This document shows positions 20,404 through 35,283 of a stretch of DNA of 40,891 nucleotides, piece by piece. The translations under genes and the position numbers were made by a program. Below the pieces are notes generated by a model, which was not told the DNA's origin, ran no database searches, and saw only the letters and a list, made by a program, of their open reading frames with translations. Each line of letters opens with the position of its first letter. Position 1 is the first letter of the stretch. The stretch is from Bacteroidota bacterium (GTDB lineage: Bacteria > Bacteroidota > Ignavibacteria > Ignavibacteriales > Ignavibacteriaceae). The stretch covers positions 1 through 40,891 of the forward strand of contig JAKAJV010000072.1 of NCBI GenBank assembly GCA_021813585.1. The letters run 5' to 3'.

Positions 20404-20736
20404 TTATCTGCCAATACTATCTAAACTTTCTTTTTTAGCTAATAGCGCTGCTTTGTCCTCTTCATGGCTCGGGTCTAATACACAGCATTCAACCGGGCAA
20501 ACCTCAACACATTGCGGGGAATCGTGAAAGCCTTCGCATTCAGTGCATTTATCGGGAACTACATAGAAATAATCGTTAGAAAAAAATCCGGTAGCGCCTG
20601 ATGGTGTTGCATCGCCTTCTCCGTATGTCTTGCCGCCTAGTTCCCAGCTCGTACCGCCTTCATAAATTGCATTGTTCGGGCATTCAGGTTCGCAGGCCCC
20701 GCAATTAATGCATTCTTCGGTTATCTTGTAAGCCAT
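20404..20736 (-). CDS. 2[4Fe-4S] ferredoxin, copy 1
   Basis: A 110-residue low-potential ferredoxin carrying two [4Fe-4S] clusters. The first cluster motif is [12 protein letters not shown] (10-21). The second is [18 protein letters not shown], where the extra residues between the second and third cysteine are characteristic of this branch. A 40-residue linker with YEGGTSWEL sits between them, and further cysteines (ECC) follow. It is cytosolic, probably serving pyruvate:ferredoxin-type oxidoreductases or similar enzymes. The start is ATG, with AAGGAG a few bases ahead. A single-gene unit is likely: a sigma54-like promoter lies upstream and a terminator downstream. The paralogue at 21067-21399 is about three quarters identical, without gaps. 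Confidence 0.92.
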
Positions 20737-21066: not shown

Positions 21067-21399
21067 CTATCGTCCTATTCCGTCTAGATATTCTTTCCTG
21101 GCCAATAAAGTAGCCTCGTCTTCAACGTGTTTGGGGTCGGGAATACAGCAATCGACAGGACAGACCGCAGCGCATTGGGGTTCATCGTGGAAGCCTTTGC
21201 ACTCAGTACATTTATCGGGCACAATATAAAAGAAATCGGTAGAATAAAATCCAACAGCTCCCGAAGGTGCGGCATCGCCGCTGCCGTAGGTTTTTCCTGT
21301 CAATTCCCAATCAACACCGCCTTCATAGATTGCAGTATTAGGGCATTCCGGCTCGCATGCACCGCAATTAATACATTCTTCAGTTATCATTATAGCCAT
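21067..21399 (-). CDS. 2[4Fe-4S] ferredoxin, copy 2
   Basis: A 110-residue paralogue of the neighbouring ferredoxin with the same motif plan: [12 protein letters not shown] (10-21), the YEGGVDWEL linker, CTECKGFHDEPQCAAVCP and DCC. Changes cluster in the linker and the C-terminal tail. The start is ATG, with GAGGAG ahead. It has its own terminator, and a 191-bp AT-rich upstream gap probably holds its promoter, where I see no -24/-12 element. The pair looks like a tandem duplication kept under separate control, so the two may serve different redox partners or growth conditions. Confidence 0.92.
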   Translation of the reverse strand: MAIMITEECINCGACEPECPNTAIYEGGVDWELTGKTYGSGDAAPSGAVGFYSTDFFYIVPDKCTECKGFHDEPQCAAVCPVDCCIPDPKHVEDEATLLARKEYLDGIGR

Positions 21400-21590: not shown

Positions 21591-22319
21591 TTACCAGCTG
21601 CCGCTTGCCCCGCCGCCGCCAAAGCTGCCGCCTCCGCCGGAAAATCCGCCCCCGCCAAAACCGCCGCCGGAGGAACCGCCGCCACCGGAGAAGCCTCCTC
21701 CGCTCCCGAATCCGCCTCCGTAATAAATAAAGCCTCCTCTTCCCCCTCTGCCGCCTCTAATAAAAAACGATATGATAATAAATATTATAAACAACAGTGT
21801 AAAAATACCCGGACCCGAACCGTTGTGAGAGCTATGCTTTTTATCGGGTTTATATTCGCCTTTTGTTGCCAGAATAATAGCGTTAATCCCTTCTGTAATC
21901 CCGCCGTAATAATCATCATTCCGGAAATACGGAATCATAACGTTTCTTATTATTGAGCTTGCGAGGGCATCGGGCAGCGCGCCTTCCAACCCGTACCCAA
22001 CCTCAATTCTTACCTTCCTGTCGTTCTTTACTACAAGAAGAAGAATCCCATTGTCGTTTTTTTTCGTTCCGATTTTATTTTTAATTGCGGTCTCGTTGGC
22101 GTACTCTTCAAGCGGGTAATCGTTTAATGTAGGTATAATCAACAGCACAATTTGATTGGACGTAGAGTCATCAAAAGTTTTCAGACGTTCATTTAAAACA
22201 GAAAGCTGCTCTTGATTTAGTGTGCCGGTAAAATCGTTGGCGTAATATTTTAGAACCGGCATTTCCGGCTGAGCAAAGCTAACAGCGGCAAATAAAAAGA
22301 GGAATGTTATTAATTTCAT
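21591..22319 (-). CDS. TPM-domain (YgcG-like) envelope protein
   Basis: About 242 residues from an ATG at 22319; the frame runs back to a TTG at 22334, but the ATG gives a clean signal peptide (MKLITFLFLFAAVSFAQP). The TPM domain follows (about 25-150), with NDFTGTLNQEQL, then a membrane helix (about 175-190) and an extreme Gly/Ser-rich tail ending GGGGASGSW. The N-terminal domain is extracytoplasmic. TPM proteins are found beside LemA; a role in envelope stress or photosystem repair is known only for a few relatives. The gene follows lemA with one base between the lemA stop and its ATG, so the two are one unit. Confidence 0.88.
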   Translation of the reverse strand: MKLITFLFLFAAVSFAQPEMPVLKYYANDFTGTLNQEQLSVLNERLKTFDDSTSNQIVLLIIPTLNDYPLEEYANETAIKNKIGTKKNDNGILLLVVKNDRKVRIEVGYGLEGALPDALASSIIRNVMIPYFRNDDYYGGITEGINAIILATKGEYKPDKKHSSHNGSGPGIFTLLFIIFIIISFFIRGGRGGRGGFIYYGGGFGSGGGFSGGGGSSGGGFGGGGFSGGGGSFGGGGASGSW

Positions 22320-22320
22320 T

Positions 22321-22929
22321 TCAGTTAAAATCAACCTTAGGTACTGTCTCTGCCCCGGCTACAGCTTTAAAGTATTGTTTCTCTCTAAAGCTAAACACAT
22401 TTGCAAATATCGAATTTGGAAACCTTTTAATTGTAGTATTGTAATTTTGAACCGTCTCGTTGAATTTCCTTCTTTCCACTGCAATCCGGTTTTCAGTACC
22501 TTCTAGCTGGGCCTGCAGCTGAAGGAAGTTTTCGTCGGCTTTTAAGTCGGGATAATTTTCTACTGTAACAAGCAGCCTAGAAATAGCTCCGCTTAATTGT
22601 CCTTGTACCTGCTGGAATTTTTGAAATGACTGGGGATCGTCTAAAATTTCTTTAGAAACAGTAAGCTGGCCGACTCTGGAACGTGCGTCGGTAACTTCGG
22701 TAAGAACGCTCTTTTCAAAATTAGCATACCCCTTTACAGTATTTACTAAATTTGGAATAAGGTCGGCACGTCTTTGGTATTGGTTTTCTACCTGGCTCCA
22801 GCTCTGGTTTACGGTTTCGTTTAAGGTAACTAAATTATTATAGGTGCTTATCCCCCACATTATTAAAATTGCTATAAGCAAAAGAACTCCCCCAGCAACG
22901 GAACAACCTACGATCATTCCTTTCTTCAT
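22321..22929 (-). CDS. lemA: LemA family protein
   Basis: A 202-residue protein with one N-terminal transmembrane helix (about 7-28) and a long helical extracytoplasmic domain. It contains the family's YNNLVTLNETVNQSWSQVE segment, followed by YQRRADLIPNLVNTVKGYA, and NYPDLKADENFLQLQAQLEG. Two ATGs stand in tandem, at 22932 and 22929. The second is preferred because AGGAGG would be too close to the first. LemA proteins have unknown biochemical function and are usually paired with TPM proteins, as here. Upstream (22933-23250) I see no gene, only an AT-rich inverted repeat. Confidence 0.93.
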   Translation of the reverse strand: MKKGMIVGCSVAGGVLLLIAILIMWGISTYNNLVTLNETVNQSWSQVENQYQRRADLIPNLVNTVKGYANFEKSVLTEVTDARSRVGQLTVSKEILDDPQSFQKFQQVQGQLSGAISRLLVTVENYPDLKADENFLQLQAQLEGTENRIAVERRKFNETVQNYNTTIKRFPNSIFANVFSFREKQYFKAVAGAETVPKVDFN

Positions 22930-23152
22930 CATTCCTCCTATATGGTTGAGTACTACATTGGAAGTTAGCTGTTTTCGTTTTGAAAATTTAGTTTCCTTGC
23001 CGAAGGCTTCTAATTGCAGCCGGAAGGCTCGTTCTGGAAAGGTTGTTGCTAAAATCTAATGCTGCCAAGGTTTTTTTACACAAAGCCTCCTCGCCGGCCT
23101 GTTATGGCGGAATTTATATTCTTAGTTTAAAAACAAGCTTTGTAGAACGTAA

Positions 23153-23250: not shown

Positions 23251-24093
23251 TTACGGCTTGGTCCCGGAATAATTATACTGCAAATAATTTAACGCCCTGT
23301 TGGAAATCTTTATGTTTTCTTCTTCTGCAAACTTACTGGAATTCTGCAGATTACCGTTATAAAACCTCAGCCATAAAAAATTGGCAATCATAACACCGTC
23401 AAAAGTTCTGCCGGCATTAAATGCACTTATCGTTAAGTATCCCCACAATACATTCCAGCCTAGAGATAACAATCCGCTTAAATAATGGCCTGTGTAAAAC
23501 TGGCCTGCACCGGGAATAAAATGAGATATTATTTCTGCAAAAGGTACCGAATACCTTTCCCGTTCAACTTTTCTGCACAGTTCCTCAAGCGTTCGGCTGG
23601 AATCAGTCTTCGAAAATGATTCGGCGGCTTTGTCCCACCTATCGGCGAATATATAAGCCCAGCCTTTCCAGTAATAAACGTCCCCCGTTTTGGAAGAGAA
23701 TTTTTTTTGCACATGCATCGAGTCCAGCAAATCCAGCGCCCTGTCGGTTGTTCTTCTTAAAATATTTGCACGGACGATATTTATCTTTGCAGTAAAGAGC
23801 TCATCAAAATTAGCGGCGTTTATTTCCGAATAAACAAAATACCTTATCGCATCGGAAAATTTGCCTCCCATCTTGTACGACATCCCGATATACTCATTGG
23901 CCGTATAACCGAATTTATTGCCGGCGTCAAAAAACAGCAAGCGCTTAAACTCGGTTACGGCATCGTAATAATCTTCTTTATCGTATAAACTCTTTGCATA
24001 ATCAAACTGCGAATGCAGTGCATCCTGACCGGGCATTTTGAACGAAGCAGCAAAAAGAAAAAGCGGTAAAAAGTATTTCAGATAGACTTTCAT
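23251..24093 (-). CDS. TPR membrane protein B of the YidD cluster
   Basis: A 280-residue exported protein of unknown function. It has a signal peptide or anchor at 1-20, then TPR-like helices (LYDKEDYYDAVTEFKRLLFF and VYYWKGWAYIFADRWDKAAESF). A hydrophobic C-terminal part begins IPGAGQFYTGHYLSGLLSLGW. The PGxGxFYT signature and the small-residue-rich helices that follow are shared with the neighbouring 289-residue protein, so the two are probably paralogues. The start is ATG, one base after the upstream stop. Placement behind an exported YidD-like gene suggests a joint envelope role, but there is no direct clue to an activity. Confidence 0.72.
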   Translation of the reverse strand: MKVYLKYFLPLFLFAASFKMPGQDALHSQFDYAKSLYDKEDYYDAVTEFKRLLFFDAGNKFGYTANEYIGMSYKMGGKFSDAIRYFVYSEINAANFDELFTAKINIVRANILRRTTDRALDLLDSMHVQKKFSSKTGDVYYWKGWAYIFADRWDKAAESFSKTDSSRTLEELCRKVERERYSVPFAEIISHFIPGAGQFYTGHYLSGLLSLGWNVLWGYLTISAFNAGRTFDGVMIANFLWLRFYNGNLQNSSKFAEEENIKISNRALNYLQYNYSGTKP

Positions 24094-24094
24094 T

Positions 24095-24964
24095 TTACCT
24101 GCAGAAATTTATATTGGGTATAAAATAGTTCCGTAACGAGAGAAAGTTCTTCAGCATATTTGTAAAATCAAAATTTACTTTGGCGTTAAACAACTGCGCC
24201 GATGCGGCCGAGCCGTATATATTGCCTCCGTAAAATCCTGCGGCAAGACCTGCGAATAACCAGCCTCTAAAATTATGATCGGCTTTGAAGTCACTGTACG
24301 ACAGGTAGCCAAGTATCCCGGTAGATAGGAAAGCAAAAACTCCGTCCCAATATTCATGAGTATAAAATTTACCTAGGCCAGGAATAACTGCGGACATAAG
24401 CGCTGCGGCAAGGGCGCTTTTATGAGGCGGATCTTCCTTCCAATTGTAAAATTTAATTGCCGAATCCCTGTCCGAACCCATGTAAGATGCAAGGAATTTA
24501 TTCTTATCCGGCAGCGGTCCGTCATTTAAGAGGTAGGAAAAGTTATAAAGCGATTCGGCCTCATTGGAATACCGGAATCCGCTCTTTATACCTGCAGCGG
24601 AATATTTTGCGCGGTACTCGGTTAAGCTGCCTTTAAGGAAATACGTTTTTAGAAATTCTAATTTAGATAATTGATACAGTGCCGAAGCCGGCGGTATATC
24701 CGCAAATCTTCCCGCAGCCTCGCTATATTTGTCCATACTGCAAAGCGAGACTGCAATTTTGAACTCTACTGTATCGTTGTAATTGGTCTTTAAATAATTC
24801 TCATATTCGCCGGCAGCCCGCAGGTAATCTCCCTGGCAGAAAAGATAATCGGCAAACTTTTTTATATTGGGAGGAGAAAATAAATTTAAGCTGTCACCGG
24901 GCTTTTTATCCTGCGGTAAAGAAGTAGAAAAAATTAATAATACAATTAAAAATGCTTTTCTCAT
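24095..24964 (-). CDS. TPR membrane protein A of the YidD cluster
   Basis: A 289-residue exported protein. It has a signal peptide (about 1-18), a TPR-like segment including YLFCQGDYLRAAGEYENYLK, and a C-terminal hydrophobic region beginning VIPGLGKFYTHEYWDGVFAF and continuing with a glycine-rich helix near GLAAGFYGGNIYGSAAS. The plan parallels the 280-residue neighbour. It starts in an ATGA overlap with the YidD-like gene and is followed after one base by the paralogue. Function unknown; the glycine-rich helices suggest insertion in a membrane, while the TPR part may bind partners in the periplasm. Confidence 0.72.
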   Translation of the reverse strand: MRKAFLIVLLIFSTSLPQDKKPGDSLNLFSPPNIKKFADYLFCQGDYLRAAGEYENYLKTNYNDTVEFKIAVSLCSMDKYSEAAGRFADIPPASALYQLSKLEFLKTYFLKGSLTEYRAKYSAAGIKSGFRYSNEAESLYNFSYLLNDGPLPDKNKFLASYMGSDRDSAIKFYNWKEDPPHKSALAAALMSAVIPGLGKFYTHEYWDGVFAFLSTGILGYLSYSDFKADHNFRGWLFAGLAAGFYGGNIYGSAASAQLFNAKVNFDFTNMLKNFLSLRNYFIPNINFCR

Positions 24965-25452
24965 TCATTACTTACTACTGCTGAAGGAGGCATATAGATA
25001 ATTTTATTTTTATTTAAAGTATAAAGCGAAGGCGGATCGTAAAAGTAACCGTTCGATGCGTAGGGATAATGCCCTATCTTGCCCAGTATATCCATATCCC
25101 GTGTGAACCTGTCGAAAAACATCAGCGTGCCCTGAGCTATGTTTGTCATCTTAACCGACCGGAGGAAAAATTCAGAGCACGTAGGATTAAAAGAGCAGTT
25201 GTCCCCGTCAACGTCTGATATGAAATACCAGTAAGTGTTCAGCAAGGATTTAAGCACGAACCTTCCCGGATTCTTCTCATCAAAAGAAAAATCCCGCTGT
25301 GCAAAACTGTCCTTTATCTCGTACGAGTAATCGGCTTTACCCCATTTTACCCAGCGGGATTCATTCTCTGACGATTTGATCTGGGCCTTTACCAAAGGAG
25401 CCGCGGCCAGGATCAAAACGGATATTATCAACTCTGCTTTTTTATTTTTCAT
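24961..25452 (-). CDS. Exported YidD-like protein
   Basis: A 163-residue protein. The YidD core is at about 70-142: FISD, then CSFNPTCSEFFLRSV with C86 and C92, then IGHYPYASNGYFYDPPS, matching the FxPTCSxY and GGYDP motifs of YidD. Ordinary YidD is a cytosolic, membrane-attached protein of some 70-100 residues that aids membrane-protein insertion with YidC. This one carries an N-terminal signal peptide (AELIISVLILAAAPLVKA) and a 50-residue spacer, so its core should face the periplasm. It starts 11 nt inside the acyl-CoA dehydrogenase gene and overlaps the next TPR gene by 4 nt. Confidence 0.8.
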   Translation of the reverse strand: MKNKKAELIISVLILAAAPLVKAQIKSSENESRWVKWGKADYSYEIKDSFAQRDFSFDEKNPGRFVLKSLLNTYWYFISDVDGDNCSFNPTCSEFFLRSVKMTNIAQGTLMFFDRFTRDMDILGKIGHYPYASNGYFYDPPSLYTLNKNKIIYMPPSAVVSNE

Positions 25453-33051: not shown

Positions 33052-35283
33052 TTACCTCTCCCGTATTTTCCTTCGAATTCTTATCAGTGTATCCGGGTTT
33101 GCCGGACTTTTTTGAGGCAGCAGCTCTGGCCTTTGCAGCCGCTTCCTTTCTTCTTCTTTAACCTTCTCCACATTATCAATGTTCTCTGCGGTGTTCACTC
33201 CCGCTTTAGCAACTGTATCTACCTTAGCGGCAACAGCATTAGTCCCGGGCAGTTTTGTGCCGGATTTTAGAGAGTCGGTTTTTGCAGAAGCCAGCTTAAG
33301 CGAGTCTTCTTGAGCCTTCTTCAGTCTGGCCAGTTCAGTCCTGTAAAATGTAAGTTCCGGAAGAACGCTTGCCGCGTACACAGACTGCGGGAACTCCGAA
33401 GTAAGAGAATCATAAATAACTGCCGCCGAATCCCTCAGGTTCAATTTGTTTTCCAGTATCCACCCCGTTGCATACAAAGCCTTGGCAGCGTAAGGGGATT
33501 TCCGGTGAGTAATATAAATGTTATAAAATTCGGTTAGGGATGAATCGTAATTGCGGCTCATCATTTTCTTTTCGGCTTCGGCATAAAGCGGCATTGCCGG
33601 GTCGTAATTAAAGTCTATAAGCGGCTTGTGCAGCTTTGTAGCAGCCGCATTCACAATGCTCTCTTTCTTATAATTATCGTAGATGATATTGAACAGGCTG
33701 TCGGCTTTAACGGAATCGTTCAAGGTAGAGTAATAGCTGCCCATAGCAAACAGCACTCTCGCCTGGTAGGGCGTGCCAGGGTAATTAGTCAATATATCGT
33801 AGTAATATTTATAAGCGGAATCCTGCATATTGAACTCGGTGAACAGCAGGTTGCCCAGTTCAAACTCTGCTTTAACCAGCCGGTTAGTAAGGGAGTCCAG
33901 GGGCATTGTAGGCCGCTTGGGCTCTATTAAAGGAGGTAAGTTCTGCAGCTCGGACTCAACCGGTTTCTGGTTGGGTATAATCTGCTGTCTGTTTCTGGCT
34001 GCAAGAGAATCTTTACCTTCTAGTTCAAGCTTTATCTTGGCGAATTTCTGCTGCTCTTCCCTCGCTTTAAGGCTGTCCGCATAAGCCAGAGAATCTCTTT
34101 TGAAAGCCGTTGAATCTACCGCGTAAAGGATTTGTGTTTTGCTGTTGTTTACCTCGGCAATCTTTGTTTGATAGGATTTTAAAAGATCGCCCTGCGTTCT
34201 TGCATCCGTTATGTATTTTACAGGAGCTGTAGAGGTTACCACCTTGCCGAAGTAAGTCGAAGCGCTGTCGAAGTTACCGAAATTATTCAAATACAAATAA
34301 GCCAGCTCGTAGCTTGCTATGCCAGAGCTTGGGGTACGGGCATAGGCGGTATCTACATATTGAAGCTGGTCCATTGCGTCCTTAACATTGTCCATCTTAA
34401 TAAGGGTGAGTCCGCGCTGCAAGTCGATTACTGCTAGCGAATCGGAATATTTTTGCTGCCGCTTCAGCCTGTCGAAAATATCCAGCGCCTGCTGGTTCTG
34501 GTTATCATTCCGGAGAGCTTTGCCTAATGCAAGCAGGGCATTAAACTGTATTTCGAAGGTCGGTGAATATTTGCTGACATTTTCAAATGCTTTAATTGCG
34601 TTCTTATTGTCCTGCACCCGTTCATAAAGCTTACCAAGCTCTAAAGATACTTCGGCATTAACCTCGGAGTTTTTAGAGACCGATAGGAACTGGTTCGTCA
34701 GATCAATGGCGCCGGCGTAGTCCTGCTGGATTATCTTATATTTTATCTCTTCAATAAAAGCATCCTCTACAATCGAGCGCTCATCATCTTTAAGCGCTTT
34801 TTCTCTAACATCCTTTAAAGTTGCAAGGCCTTCGCTGAACTGCCGAAGCCGCATTTGAGATTTTCCCACCCAGAGCTCGGCTGTAAGAAGCATTATGCCT
34901 TTAGGCTGCCTGGCTATAAGCTCGTTAAACTTTCTTAATGCTTTAAGATAGTTTGCCTGGTAGTAAAAGCTTTTTCCCAGCATAAGCAGTGCATCGTTTA
35001 CAAAGCCGCTGTTGGAATGGAACTGGAGAATTTGAGAGCATTTTTCCACAACCTTAGTAAGCTGGGTGCTGGCGCTCTGCGGCAGAATTAAATCCTGTGT
35101 TGAAAATAAATCCCTCTTTTGAGAGTTTATGTCTTTCTCAGCCTGGCTGAAAGCATCCGAGGCGTTGTAATACAGATTGAAATACGTCGTAAAATCGGCC
35201 CACACGCCGCACCCGAAGAACAGCGCCGAAGGTGCGATAATCAACAACGATTTTAAAACAAACAAATGAATTTTATTTTGCAT
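33052..35283 (-). CDS. Large TPR lipoprotein, PorW/SprE-like
   Basis: A 743-residue protein with a lipoprotein signal ending at C25 in ALFFGCGVW. The segment that follows, TTYFNLYYNASDAFSQAEKDI, resembles the N-terminus of PorW/SprE, the lipoprotein needed for type IX secretion and gliding in Bacteroidota. About ten TPR-like units follow, interrupted by a polar, charged middle region (about 385-450), and the C-terminus is basic and proline-rich (RPELLPQKSPANPD). The start is ATG. If the match is right it acts in the periplasm, linked to the outer membrane. An alternative is a general TPR outer-membrane assembly lipoprotein. No other secretion gene is adjacent. Confidence 0.65.
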   Translation of the reverse strand: MQNKIHLFVLKSLLIIAPSALFFGCGVWADFTTYFNLYYNASDAFSQAEKDINSQKRDLFSTQDLILPQSASTQLTKVVEKCSQILQFHSNSGFVNDALLMLGKSFYYQANYLKALRKFNELIARQPKGIMLLTAELWVGKSQMRLRQFSEGLATLKDVREKALKDDERSIVEDAFIEEIKYKIIQQDYAGAIDLTNQFLSVSKNSEVNAEVSLELGKLYERVQDNKNAIKAFENVSKYSPTFEIQFNALLALGKALRNDNQNQQALDIFDRLKRQQKYSDSLAVIDLQRGLTLIKMDNVKDAMDQLQYVDTAYARTPSSGIASYELAYLYLNNFGNFDSASTYFGKVVTSTAPVKYITDARTQGDLLKSYQTKIAEVNNSKTQILYAVDSTAFKRDSLAYADSLKAREEQQKFAKIKLELEGKDSLAARNRQQIIPNQKPVESELQNLPPLIEPKRPTMPLDSLTNRLVKAEFELGNLLFTEFNMQDSAYKYYYDILTNYPGTPYQARVLFAMGSYYSTLNDSVKADSLFNIIYDNYKKESIVNAAATKLHKPLIDFNYDPAMPLYAEAEKKMMSRNYDSSLTEFYNIYITHRKSPYAAKALYATGWILENKLNLRDSAAVIYDSLTSEFPQSVYAASVLPELTFYRTELARLKKAQEDSLKLASAKTDSLKSGTKLPGTNAVAAKVDTVAKAGVNTAENIDNVEKVKEEERKRLQRPELLPQKSPANPDTLIRIRRKIRER

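Follow-up and report, generated by a model that had tools for sequence, protein, structure and literature searches.

An exported YidD lineage, predicted from sequence, is joined to TPR/PG membrane proteins in several bacterial phyla

Why would a YidD domain be preceded by a signal peptide? This question is raised by a three-gene cassette in a stretch of 40,891 nucleotides (contig JAKAJV010000072.1 of assembly GCA_021813585.1; the whole stretch is hereafter called the window) from a Bacteroidota bacterium of the class Ignavibacteria, order Ignavibacteriales, family Ignavibacteriaceae. The cassette encodes a YidD protein and two membrane proteins, tprA and tprB (names coined in this analysis), in which a tetratricopeptide repeat (TPR) or TPR-like arm is followed by a C-terminal module with a PGxGxFYT-type turn, referred to here as the PG module. 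Our analysis indicates that this YidD belongs to a lineage of predicted exported proteins that is found beside, or fused to, PG proteins in several phyla. The cassette may encode a periplasm-facing, inner-membrane complex that handles clients, a reading to which we assign a probability of roughly 0.4.

The three genes, in the order yidD, tprA, tprB, are closely packed on the minus strand. The end of yidD and the start of tprA share 4 nt and the gap between tprA and tprB is 1 nt, in keeping with the translational coupling proposed in an earlier annotation made from the DNA letters alone (the sequence-only reading). The yidD gene sits between tprA and an acyl-CoA dehydrogenase gene upstream, with which it overlaps by 11 nt, and not in the rpmH-rnpA-yidD position. 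The YidD core exceeded the cut-offs of both Pfam and NCBIfam (Table 1) and is preceded by 65 residues. These begin with MKNKKAELIISVLILAAAPLVKA followed by Q, in which a lysine-rich n-region, a hydrophobic core, and V and A at positions -3 and -1 are seen by eye; all 28 aligned YidD relatives have the same residue in the column of Q24, which directly follows the predicted cleavage site. The signal peptide that the sequence-only reading had placed ahead of the YidD core was thus recovered, and all three cassette proteins start with signal-peptide-like sequences by eye (signal peptides and lipoboxes were judged throughout by eye and with a simple hydropathy script). In canonical YidD, the domain begins near the first Met, lacks a signal peptide and is at the cytosolic face; the window YidD differs by sequence, contains neither the third-Cys motif R-C-[HN]-P nor GG-x-DP, and has D119 where canonical YidD has its third Cys.

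The tprA and tprB proteins are homologous, the profile of each finding the other, and 34 proteins of this type from 17 loci aligned over the helical arm and the C-terminal module, with the module consensus KSxxxAxxLSxIIPGxGQxYTGEY...RFYxGN. The shared module exceeds PGxGxFYT and extends to FYxGN(I/L)xxAxxxAxxxN. The sequence-only reading had described two paralogues sharing TPR repeats and PGxGxFYT: the homology and the module hold, whereas TPR repeats pass the Pfam cut-off in tprB only (TPR_2; Table 1), tprA having no Pfam TPR match at E ≤ 1 and being TPR-like by homology to tprB alone. The PG module resembles DUF5683 (PF18935) and TM2 (PF05154) in its PGxGxxY turn followed by hydrophobic helices. 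However, tprA matched them only weakly (22.6 and 16.8 bits, below both cut-offs), tprB had no DUF5683 match, and the cassette module is attached to a TPR arm and carries the conserved FYxGN(I/L) ending, or is attached straight to YidD.

We sampled 32 genomes of the window's order, 12 from its own family and 20 from elsewhere in the order, and found the triple in 30; because it is kept in other genomes, the cassette is not a chance arrangement. Across 197 genomes of the class, the window YidD had matches at E ≤ 0.01 in 83; 34 class matches were at 1.5e-6 or better, with frames of at least 128 aa, whereas the weaker matches were mostly short, canonical-looking frames whose individual identity is putative. 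All 33 strong class loci besides the window's own (L034 to L066; L denotes loci and G genomes) carry two adjoining PG genes. Furthermore, a reverse search with a TPR/PG profile revealed an exported YidD beside or fused to PG in 14 of 17 loci picked from the strong matches (L107 to L123), the other three being fragments without a visible YidD. In a sample of 198 Spirochaetota genomes, at least 40 contained candidates (E ≤ 2e-12 in a stop-free frame of at least 120 aa), and one or two adjoining PG genes were present in 20 of 20 loci picked from the upper part of the YidD-profile list. Another 70 loci were obtained when named genomes were searched with the aligned sequences of three natural fusions, a query that favours fused and YidD-PG forms. 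By NCBI name, these loci belong to Thermodesulfobacteriota (including Desulfobacter latus and Desulfonema magnum), Spirochaetota (Treponema), Fidelibacterota, Fibrobacterota, Bacteroidota, KSB1, "Deltaproteobacteria" under Myxococcota, and a few others, and in a sample of 118 genomes from the phylum of D. latus a second long YidD was seen in a minority. The three-gene order that the sequence-only reading had considered for Ignavibacteria and relatives is thus conserved in the order, and the module reaches well beyond that scope into several other phyla.

For the counts that follow, we removed a canonical YidD (L067), the region of a canonical copy (L070), the three fragments without YidD (L113, L114, L115) and a locus with a protein identical to that of L069 (L130). 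Of the resulting 139 loci, four were duplicates (L155, L157, L172, L181), leaving 135 distinct loci. A PG gene was adjacent (gap below 300 bp) or fused to YidD in 118 of them, distributed over five architectures: YidD-PG-PG (51 loci), YidD-PG (32), YidD fused to PG (20), a LolA-like domain fused to YidD and followed by two PG genes (10, namely nine Treponema and one further spirochaete), and a LolA-like gene followed by YidD-PG-PG (5). In the other 17 loci, YidD either had no close PG gene (16) or lay at a contig end (1); in L153, however, a PG gene follows at a distance of about 770 bp, and L166 has a PG piece in a nearby 86-aa frame. The fusions are of two kinds: nine of the 20 have about 180 to 206 residues between the domains, corresponding to a TPR-type arm, and 11 have 15 to 25 residues and no TPR, 10 of these being from Fidelibacterota. 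Desulfonema magnum contains a YidD without PG and a second protein in which YidD closes a repeat-rich N terminus (292 aa, TPR by eye), whose gene overlaps a TPR-PG gene. YidD has thus been fused with PG, with a TPR-type arm and with a LolA-like domain, on either of its sides, and at the level of predicted genes and domains the architecture and linkage of the module are established.

A structural model of a 416-aa YidD-TPR-PG fusion (L132) had a mean predicted local distance difference test (pLDDT) score of 79.5; values exceeded 90 in the TPR and PG parts, were about 59 to 84 along YidD and were low in the linkers. Its PG module is predicted to form two short helices at the turn and then two long helices. 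The 50 Foldseek matches listed for the model were TPR or other helical-repeat proteins, and among them there was no fold match to the YidD domain or the PG module, the YidD part not having been searched alone. For this reason, and because this part is of low-to-middling confidence, we do not claim a new fold.

A single branch separated exported from canonical domains in a quick tree with 135 of the former and 21 of the latter (Shimodaira-Hasegawa-like approximate likelihood ratio test value of 92). The split required one change as compared to a mean of 20.1 in shuffled data, and none of 500 shuffles was as low. The program warned of few columns and some long branches, and the canonical set was a non-random sample from 19 system-bearing genomes and from G135 and G140. 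Both cysteines and one Arg were invariant in 156 of 156 domains, and a Pro and a Ser were nearly so. Ahead of the invariant Arg, all 135 exported domains have D or E, whereas none of the 21 canonical ones does; the latter have K or R in 13 cases and W or further residues in the others. Similarly, the first Cys is followed by Pro in 91 of 135 exported domains and by Arg in all 21 canonical domains, which also all have the second G of the GG motif; this G is not retained in the exported forms, which lack GG-DP and have an insertion there. The third Cys is present in all canonical domains and in 79 of the exported ones, being replaced by Asp in 43 of 43 window-order loci and by Glu in 11 others. 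Exported forms have the domain of PF01809/TIGR00278, with its invariant Cys pair and Arg and, for the window YidD, with scores over both curated cut-offs, but differ in their signal peptide or lipobox, longer N terminus, and position, which is not beside rnpA and is mostly linked to TPR/PG proteins.

The genome of the window also contains a canonical yidD of 69 aa, as revealed by a whole-genome Pfam search. It is on contig C56, directly after rpmH and rnpA, and the NCBIfam scores of rpmH (76 bits), rnpA (42.5 bits) and YidD (94 bits) are each over their own cut-off. A survey covered 53 genomes, namely G135 and G140, which lack the system, and 51 that have it. A canonical yidD was likewise detected in 49 of the 51, whereas G506 and G511 yielded the exported type only. 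A YidD over the Pfam cut-off was detected in 10 of 14 control genomes. Because 49 of 51 retain the canonical gene, the exported yidD is not a replacement for the housekeeping gene. The Escherichia coli YidD study of Yu et al. (2011) is cited in PMC8082313 and PMC6822775, and a table in PMC8082313 lists canonical YidD, with that citation, as acting in membrane protein insertion near YidC/SecY.

As judged by the hydropathy test, a hydrophobic N-terminal segment precedes the YidD domain in 133 of the 135 loci, all except L141, where the frame is at the edge of a contig, and L194, where it has 97 aa. The n-region has a net positive charge in 123. Among the 15 solo forms, in which no PG gene was seen, 10 have a lipobox by eye (L173, L174, L176, L177, L180, L183, L187, L190, L191, L196); in these desulfobacterial genomes, exported YidD would occur as a solo lipoprotein. 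In the spirochaete fusions, a LolA-fold domain is placed between the signal peptide and YidD, and in the YidD-PG fusions YidD follows the signal peptide and precedes the C-terminal membrane module. Under established export rules, the lipoboxes, the interposed LolA-fold domain and the position ahead of the membrane module strongly suggest that the YidD domain is outside the cytoplasm and faces the periplasm, on the opposite membrane side from normal YidD, as the sequence-only reading had placed it. An ordinary second insertion factor, in which the N-terminal segment is an anchor and the YidD domain remains in the cytoplasm beside YidC/SecYEG, would account for the YidD motif kept in the core and for the finding that 10 of 11 exported forms tested exceed the NCBIfam YidD cut-off. 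The positive n-regions, the lipoboxes, the place of the LolA-fold domain, the exclusive [D/E]R signature and the retention of a canonical copy nevertheless make it very improbable.

The invariant cysteines could alternatively point to a periplasmic metal or redox protein, in which they bind zinc or form a thiol pair and the TPR/PG proteins serve as membrane tethers. In accordance with this possibility, both cysteines are present in 135 of 135 exported domains, and zinc-type ABC transporter genes were recognized by BLAST clusters close upstream of six of the 15 solo forms (L176, L177, L180, L183, L190, L191), Pfam confirming ZnuA (E=6.5e-61) and ABC-3 (E=1.2e-71) at L176. Against it, a three-Cys metal site is not conserved, given the Asp and Glu replacements of the third Cys noted above; a periplasmic Cys pair may be a mere structural disulphide; and the ZnuA-like cluster, with five loci, has no member at any YidD-PG locus. 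We thus consider a metal or redox role distinctly improbable, and a client-handling complex remains our preferred reading.

For the two PG genes, a quick tree was built with 78 proteins of 39 loci, the 39 loci of the window's order having been thinned to 12. First- and second-position genes separated with two changes, as compared to about 26 in shuffles, tprA grouping with the former and tprB with the latter. The split is imperfect, as nine spirochaete loci have second-position genes that group on the first-position side, and the tree has some long rows, with the placement of L168, L108 and L060 being unsure. The simplest reading would be one PG duplication that preceded the spread over Bacteroidota and Spirochaetota, either through vertical inheritance or through transfer of the cassette as a whole.

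Outside the window's order, a further partner resembles the LolA/LolB carriers. A LolA-like gene overlaps the yidD start by 4 to 14 nt in L064, L065, L066, L108 and L220; the last of these was outside the profile and was found by the joint LolA-like profile with 118.9 bits (E=7e-36). The separate LolA-like genes share 15 to 19% identity with the fused Treponema domain. In the PDB, a sequence search with the partner gave a sole match at E ≤ 10, which was a LolA-superfamily protein (E=0.57). The model of the Treponema fusion L170 (mean pLDDT 82.8, beta domain mostly above 90) has a LolA/LolB fold in its N-terminal domain, and it matched 3buu_A in Foldseek (E=3.1e-10) and LolA3 of Porphyromonas gingivalis, 9tp6_B, in VIA-align (Z=15.2, root mean square deviation 4.1 over 185 residues). 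The partner thus shares the superfamily fold of these carriers but is below the LolA cut-offs of Pfam (PF03548, 13.6 bits for L065 versus 23.6, with no match for L066 and L108) and NCBIfam (TIGR00547, 14.4 bits for L065 and 17.3 bits for L066 versus 112, with no match for L108). It also differs from them in being fused to, or overlapping, exported yidD, and it was not found with the window cassette. A precedent for specialized LolA paralogues is offered by LolA2/LolB2 at the flexirubin locus of Flavobacterium johnsoniae, as far as this locus is presented in PMC11885536.

In desulfobacterial genomes the neighbours are of another kind. Of the 18 YidD-PG loci with a Thermodesulfobacteriota or Myxococcota label, 10 have a gene like that of the type II secretion system (T2SS) ATPase immediately upstream. 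In terms of BLAST clusters, a GspE-like gene is at position -1 in 10 loci, a secretin-like gene at -2 in eight and a GspC-like gene at -3 in four; the T2SSE and secretin assignments are confirmed by Pfam at L144 and the T2SSC assignment at L135, and the remaining T2SS neighbours rest on the clusters. These genes are the basis of the main rival explanation, in which the module, instead of handling membrane or lipid clients, would help to assemble one particular secretion system, of type II or, in Ignavibacteriales, of type IX, and the TPR arms would recruit its subunits to the inner membrane. For type IX, it can be added that the cassette protein P0003 weakly matches PorW/SprE (NF052312, 22.2 bits versus a cut-off of 250) and that the same window encodes a PorW/SprE-like TPR lipoprotein (152 bits, also below that cut-off). 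However, the P0003 match spans TPR residues 69-163 only, so that a TPR arm is what is held in common with PorW/SprE (periplasmic by its NCBIfam name), and the PorW/SprE-like protein of the window is a separate gene. Moreover, no secretion genes were recognized in the neighbour clusters at Spirochaetota, Fidelibacterota and window-order cassettes, most of these clusters being without a family search. A role in secretion-machine assembly is therefore judged unlikely, although it stands above the other rivals.

The client-handling complex that we favour would work as follows. The TPR proteins would be held in the inner membrane by their PG module and extend their TPR arm into the periplasm, and YidD would lie on the outer leaflet via the helix that precedes its first Cys (Y...IS), its two invariant cysteines probably forming a disulphide bond. 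Exported YidD might serve envelope clients in the way proposed for canonical YidD at the cytosolic face, aiding hydrophobic segments or acyl chains in entering or leaving the membrane. The TPR arms could then hand the client to a lineage-specific carrier or machine, which may be a LolA-type carrier in some Spirochaetota and Bacteroidota and possibly the T2SS in desulfobacterial genomes; client transfer by the module is inferred. A bolder version, which we regard as rather doubtful, is a widespread envelope transport module of two-membrane bacteria: YidD would have moved early to the periplasmic side and, with the ancient TPR/PG anchor pair, would serve as a site where hydrophobic clients of the outer leaflet are loaded into dedicated LolA-fold carriers or secretion machines, on a second route parallel to LolCDE.

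Several observations weigh against a client-handling complex. The cassette was not found in two of the 32 genomes of the order (G135 and G140), and the 15 solo forms have no PG gene in sight. There is no single universal partner, since T2SS neighbours were recognized in desulfobacterial loci only; the LolA-like profile gave a single weak match (E=0.022, in the genome of the window) in 12 genomes, eight of them from the window's order. No match at E ≤ 0.001 was among the Foldseek matches listed for the L132 model, and a sequence search found no solved YidD structure. Lastly, the function of canonical YidD is itself poorly understood.

The sequence-only reading had suspected an envelope system with no described function, and we found no description of exported YidD or its module among the papers listed by searches of the open-licence PubMed Central literature; the YidD domain family is already known, whereas the exported lineage and its module appear to be new. 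YidD is widespread in bacteria and its mechanism is unclear. Because 10 of the 11 exported forms tested pass the NCBI model, they would be labelled "membrane protein insertion efficiency factor", a name that presumes the other side of the membrane. The same domain, apparently moved across the membrane and fused to a LolA fold, TPR and a PG hairpin, represents a natural experiment that offers a handle on the role of the YidD domain, and the module points to an envelope pathway common to Ignavibacteriota, Bacteroidota, Spirochaetota, Thermodesulfobacteriota, Fibrobacterota and Fidelibacterota.

Table 1. Coordinates of the cassette features and of neighbouring genes in the window and at other loci.
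Feature	Sequence	Coordinates	Strand	Remarks
Exported-type YidD, 163 aa	Window	24961..25452	-	PF01809 38.1 bits (cut-off 27); TIGR00278 (NCBIfam) 45.1 bits (cut-off 40); aligned with 28 relatives
Predicted YidD signal peptide, residues 1-23	Window	25384..25452	-	Cleavage between VKA and Q; read by eye; Q24 column invariant
YidD core, residues 66-118	Window	25099..25257	-	C86, P90, C92, D114-R115, R118
tprA, first TPR-like/PG membrane protein, 289 aa	Window	24095..24964	-	Signal-peptide-like N terminus
tprA C-terminal PG module, about residues 185-260	Window	24185..24412	-	DUF5683 22.6 bits, below cut-off of 26.7
tprB, second TPR/PG membrane protein, 280 aa	Window	23251..24093	-	Signal-peptide-like N terminus; TPR_2 29.4 bits (cut-off 27)
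tprB C-terminal PG module, about residues 185-260	Window	23314..23541	-
TPR lipoprotein, PorW/SprE-like, 743 aa	Window	33052-35283	-
LemA and TPM-domain protein pair	Window	21591-22932	-	Downstream of cassette
Ferredoxin-like protein, 110 aa	Window	20404-20736	-	Named by eye
Ferredoxin-like protein, 110 aa	Window	21067-21399	-	Named by eye
PEGA-type lipoprotein	L068	3480-4037
PEGA-type lipoprotein	L069	3654-4124
PEGA-type lipoprotein	L107	6165-6653
PEGA-type lipoprotein	L111	3312-3833
PEGA-type lipoprotein	L065	956-1324
Small hydrophobic protein, about 135 aa	L064	6614-7015
Small hydrophobic protein, about 135 aa	L065	1456-1869
Small hydrophobic protein, about 135 aa	L066	4497-4901
281-aa protein with CsgG/LpoB-like start	L220	619-1464
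193-aa protein	L164	2710-3291

Further genes accompany the cassette within the order. Of 39 window-order loci, 35 have an acyl-CoA dehydrogenase gene among the five genes upstream, which in 25 is the gene immediately upstream on the same strand, and LemA, TPM and two further genes are each within seven genes downstream in 30 of the 39. We rejected these genes as parts of the cassette and read them as order-wide synteny, because in the neighbour clusters outside the order the dehydrogenase appears on the opposite strand only (L107, L232) and LemA/TPM are absent among clusters of at least four loci. A PEGA lipoprotein gene is directly upstream in L068, L069, L107 and L111 and on the opposite strand in L065 (assignment tested with Pfam in L069, L111 and L065); it is possibly an extra part of the module, too rare for this to be claimed. 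The PEGA-type lipoproteins of L069 and L111 weakly resemble the Leptospira LEPBI_I2678 family. The Leptospira LIC11435 family was dropped as a relative of the cassette: P0002 matched it weakly (10.6 bits, cut-off 380), and its best matches in four genomes were elsewhere, in frames of 160 to 190 aa. For the "haemolytic" reading of PF01809, which goes back to an older name, no evidence was seen and none was looked for.

Two genes upstream of exported yidD, three Bacteroidota-class loci (L064, L065, L066) encode a small hydrophobic protein, and the spirochaete L220 has in the same place a 281-aa protein whose end resembles it (36% over 69 residues). A 193-aa protein of no known Pfam family is directly upstream of the LolA-YidD fusion in L164 and eight other Treponema loci. 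A promoter and terminator scan gave counts close to the shuffled mean and was not used. The 743-aa TPR lipoprotein of the window also matches YbgF (105.6 bits, over the cut-off of 90.1), and relatives of it are near the cassette in L035, L036, L054 and L121. Finally, the two ferredoxin-like proteins of the window are near-alike and encoded in tandem.

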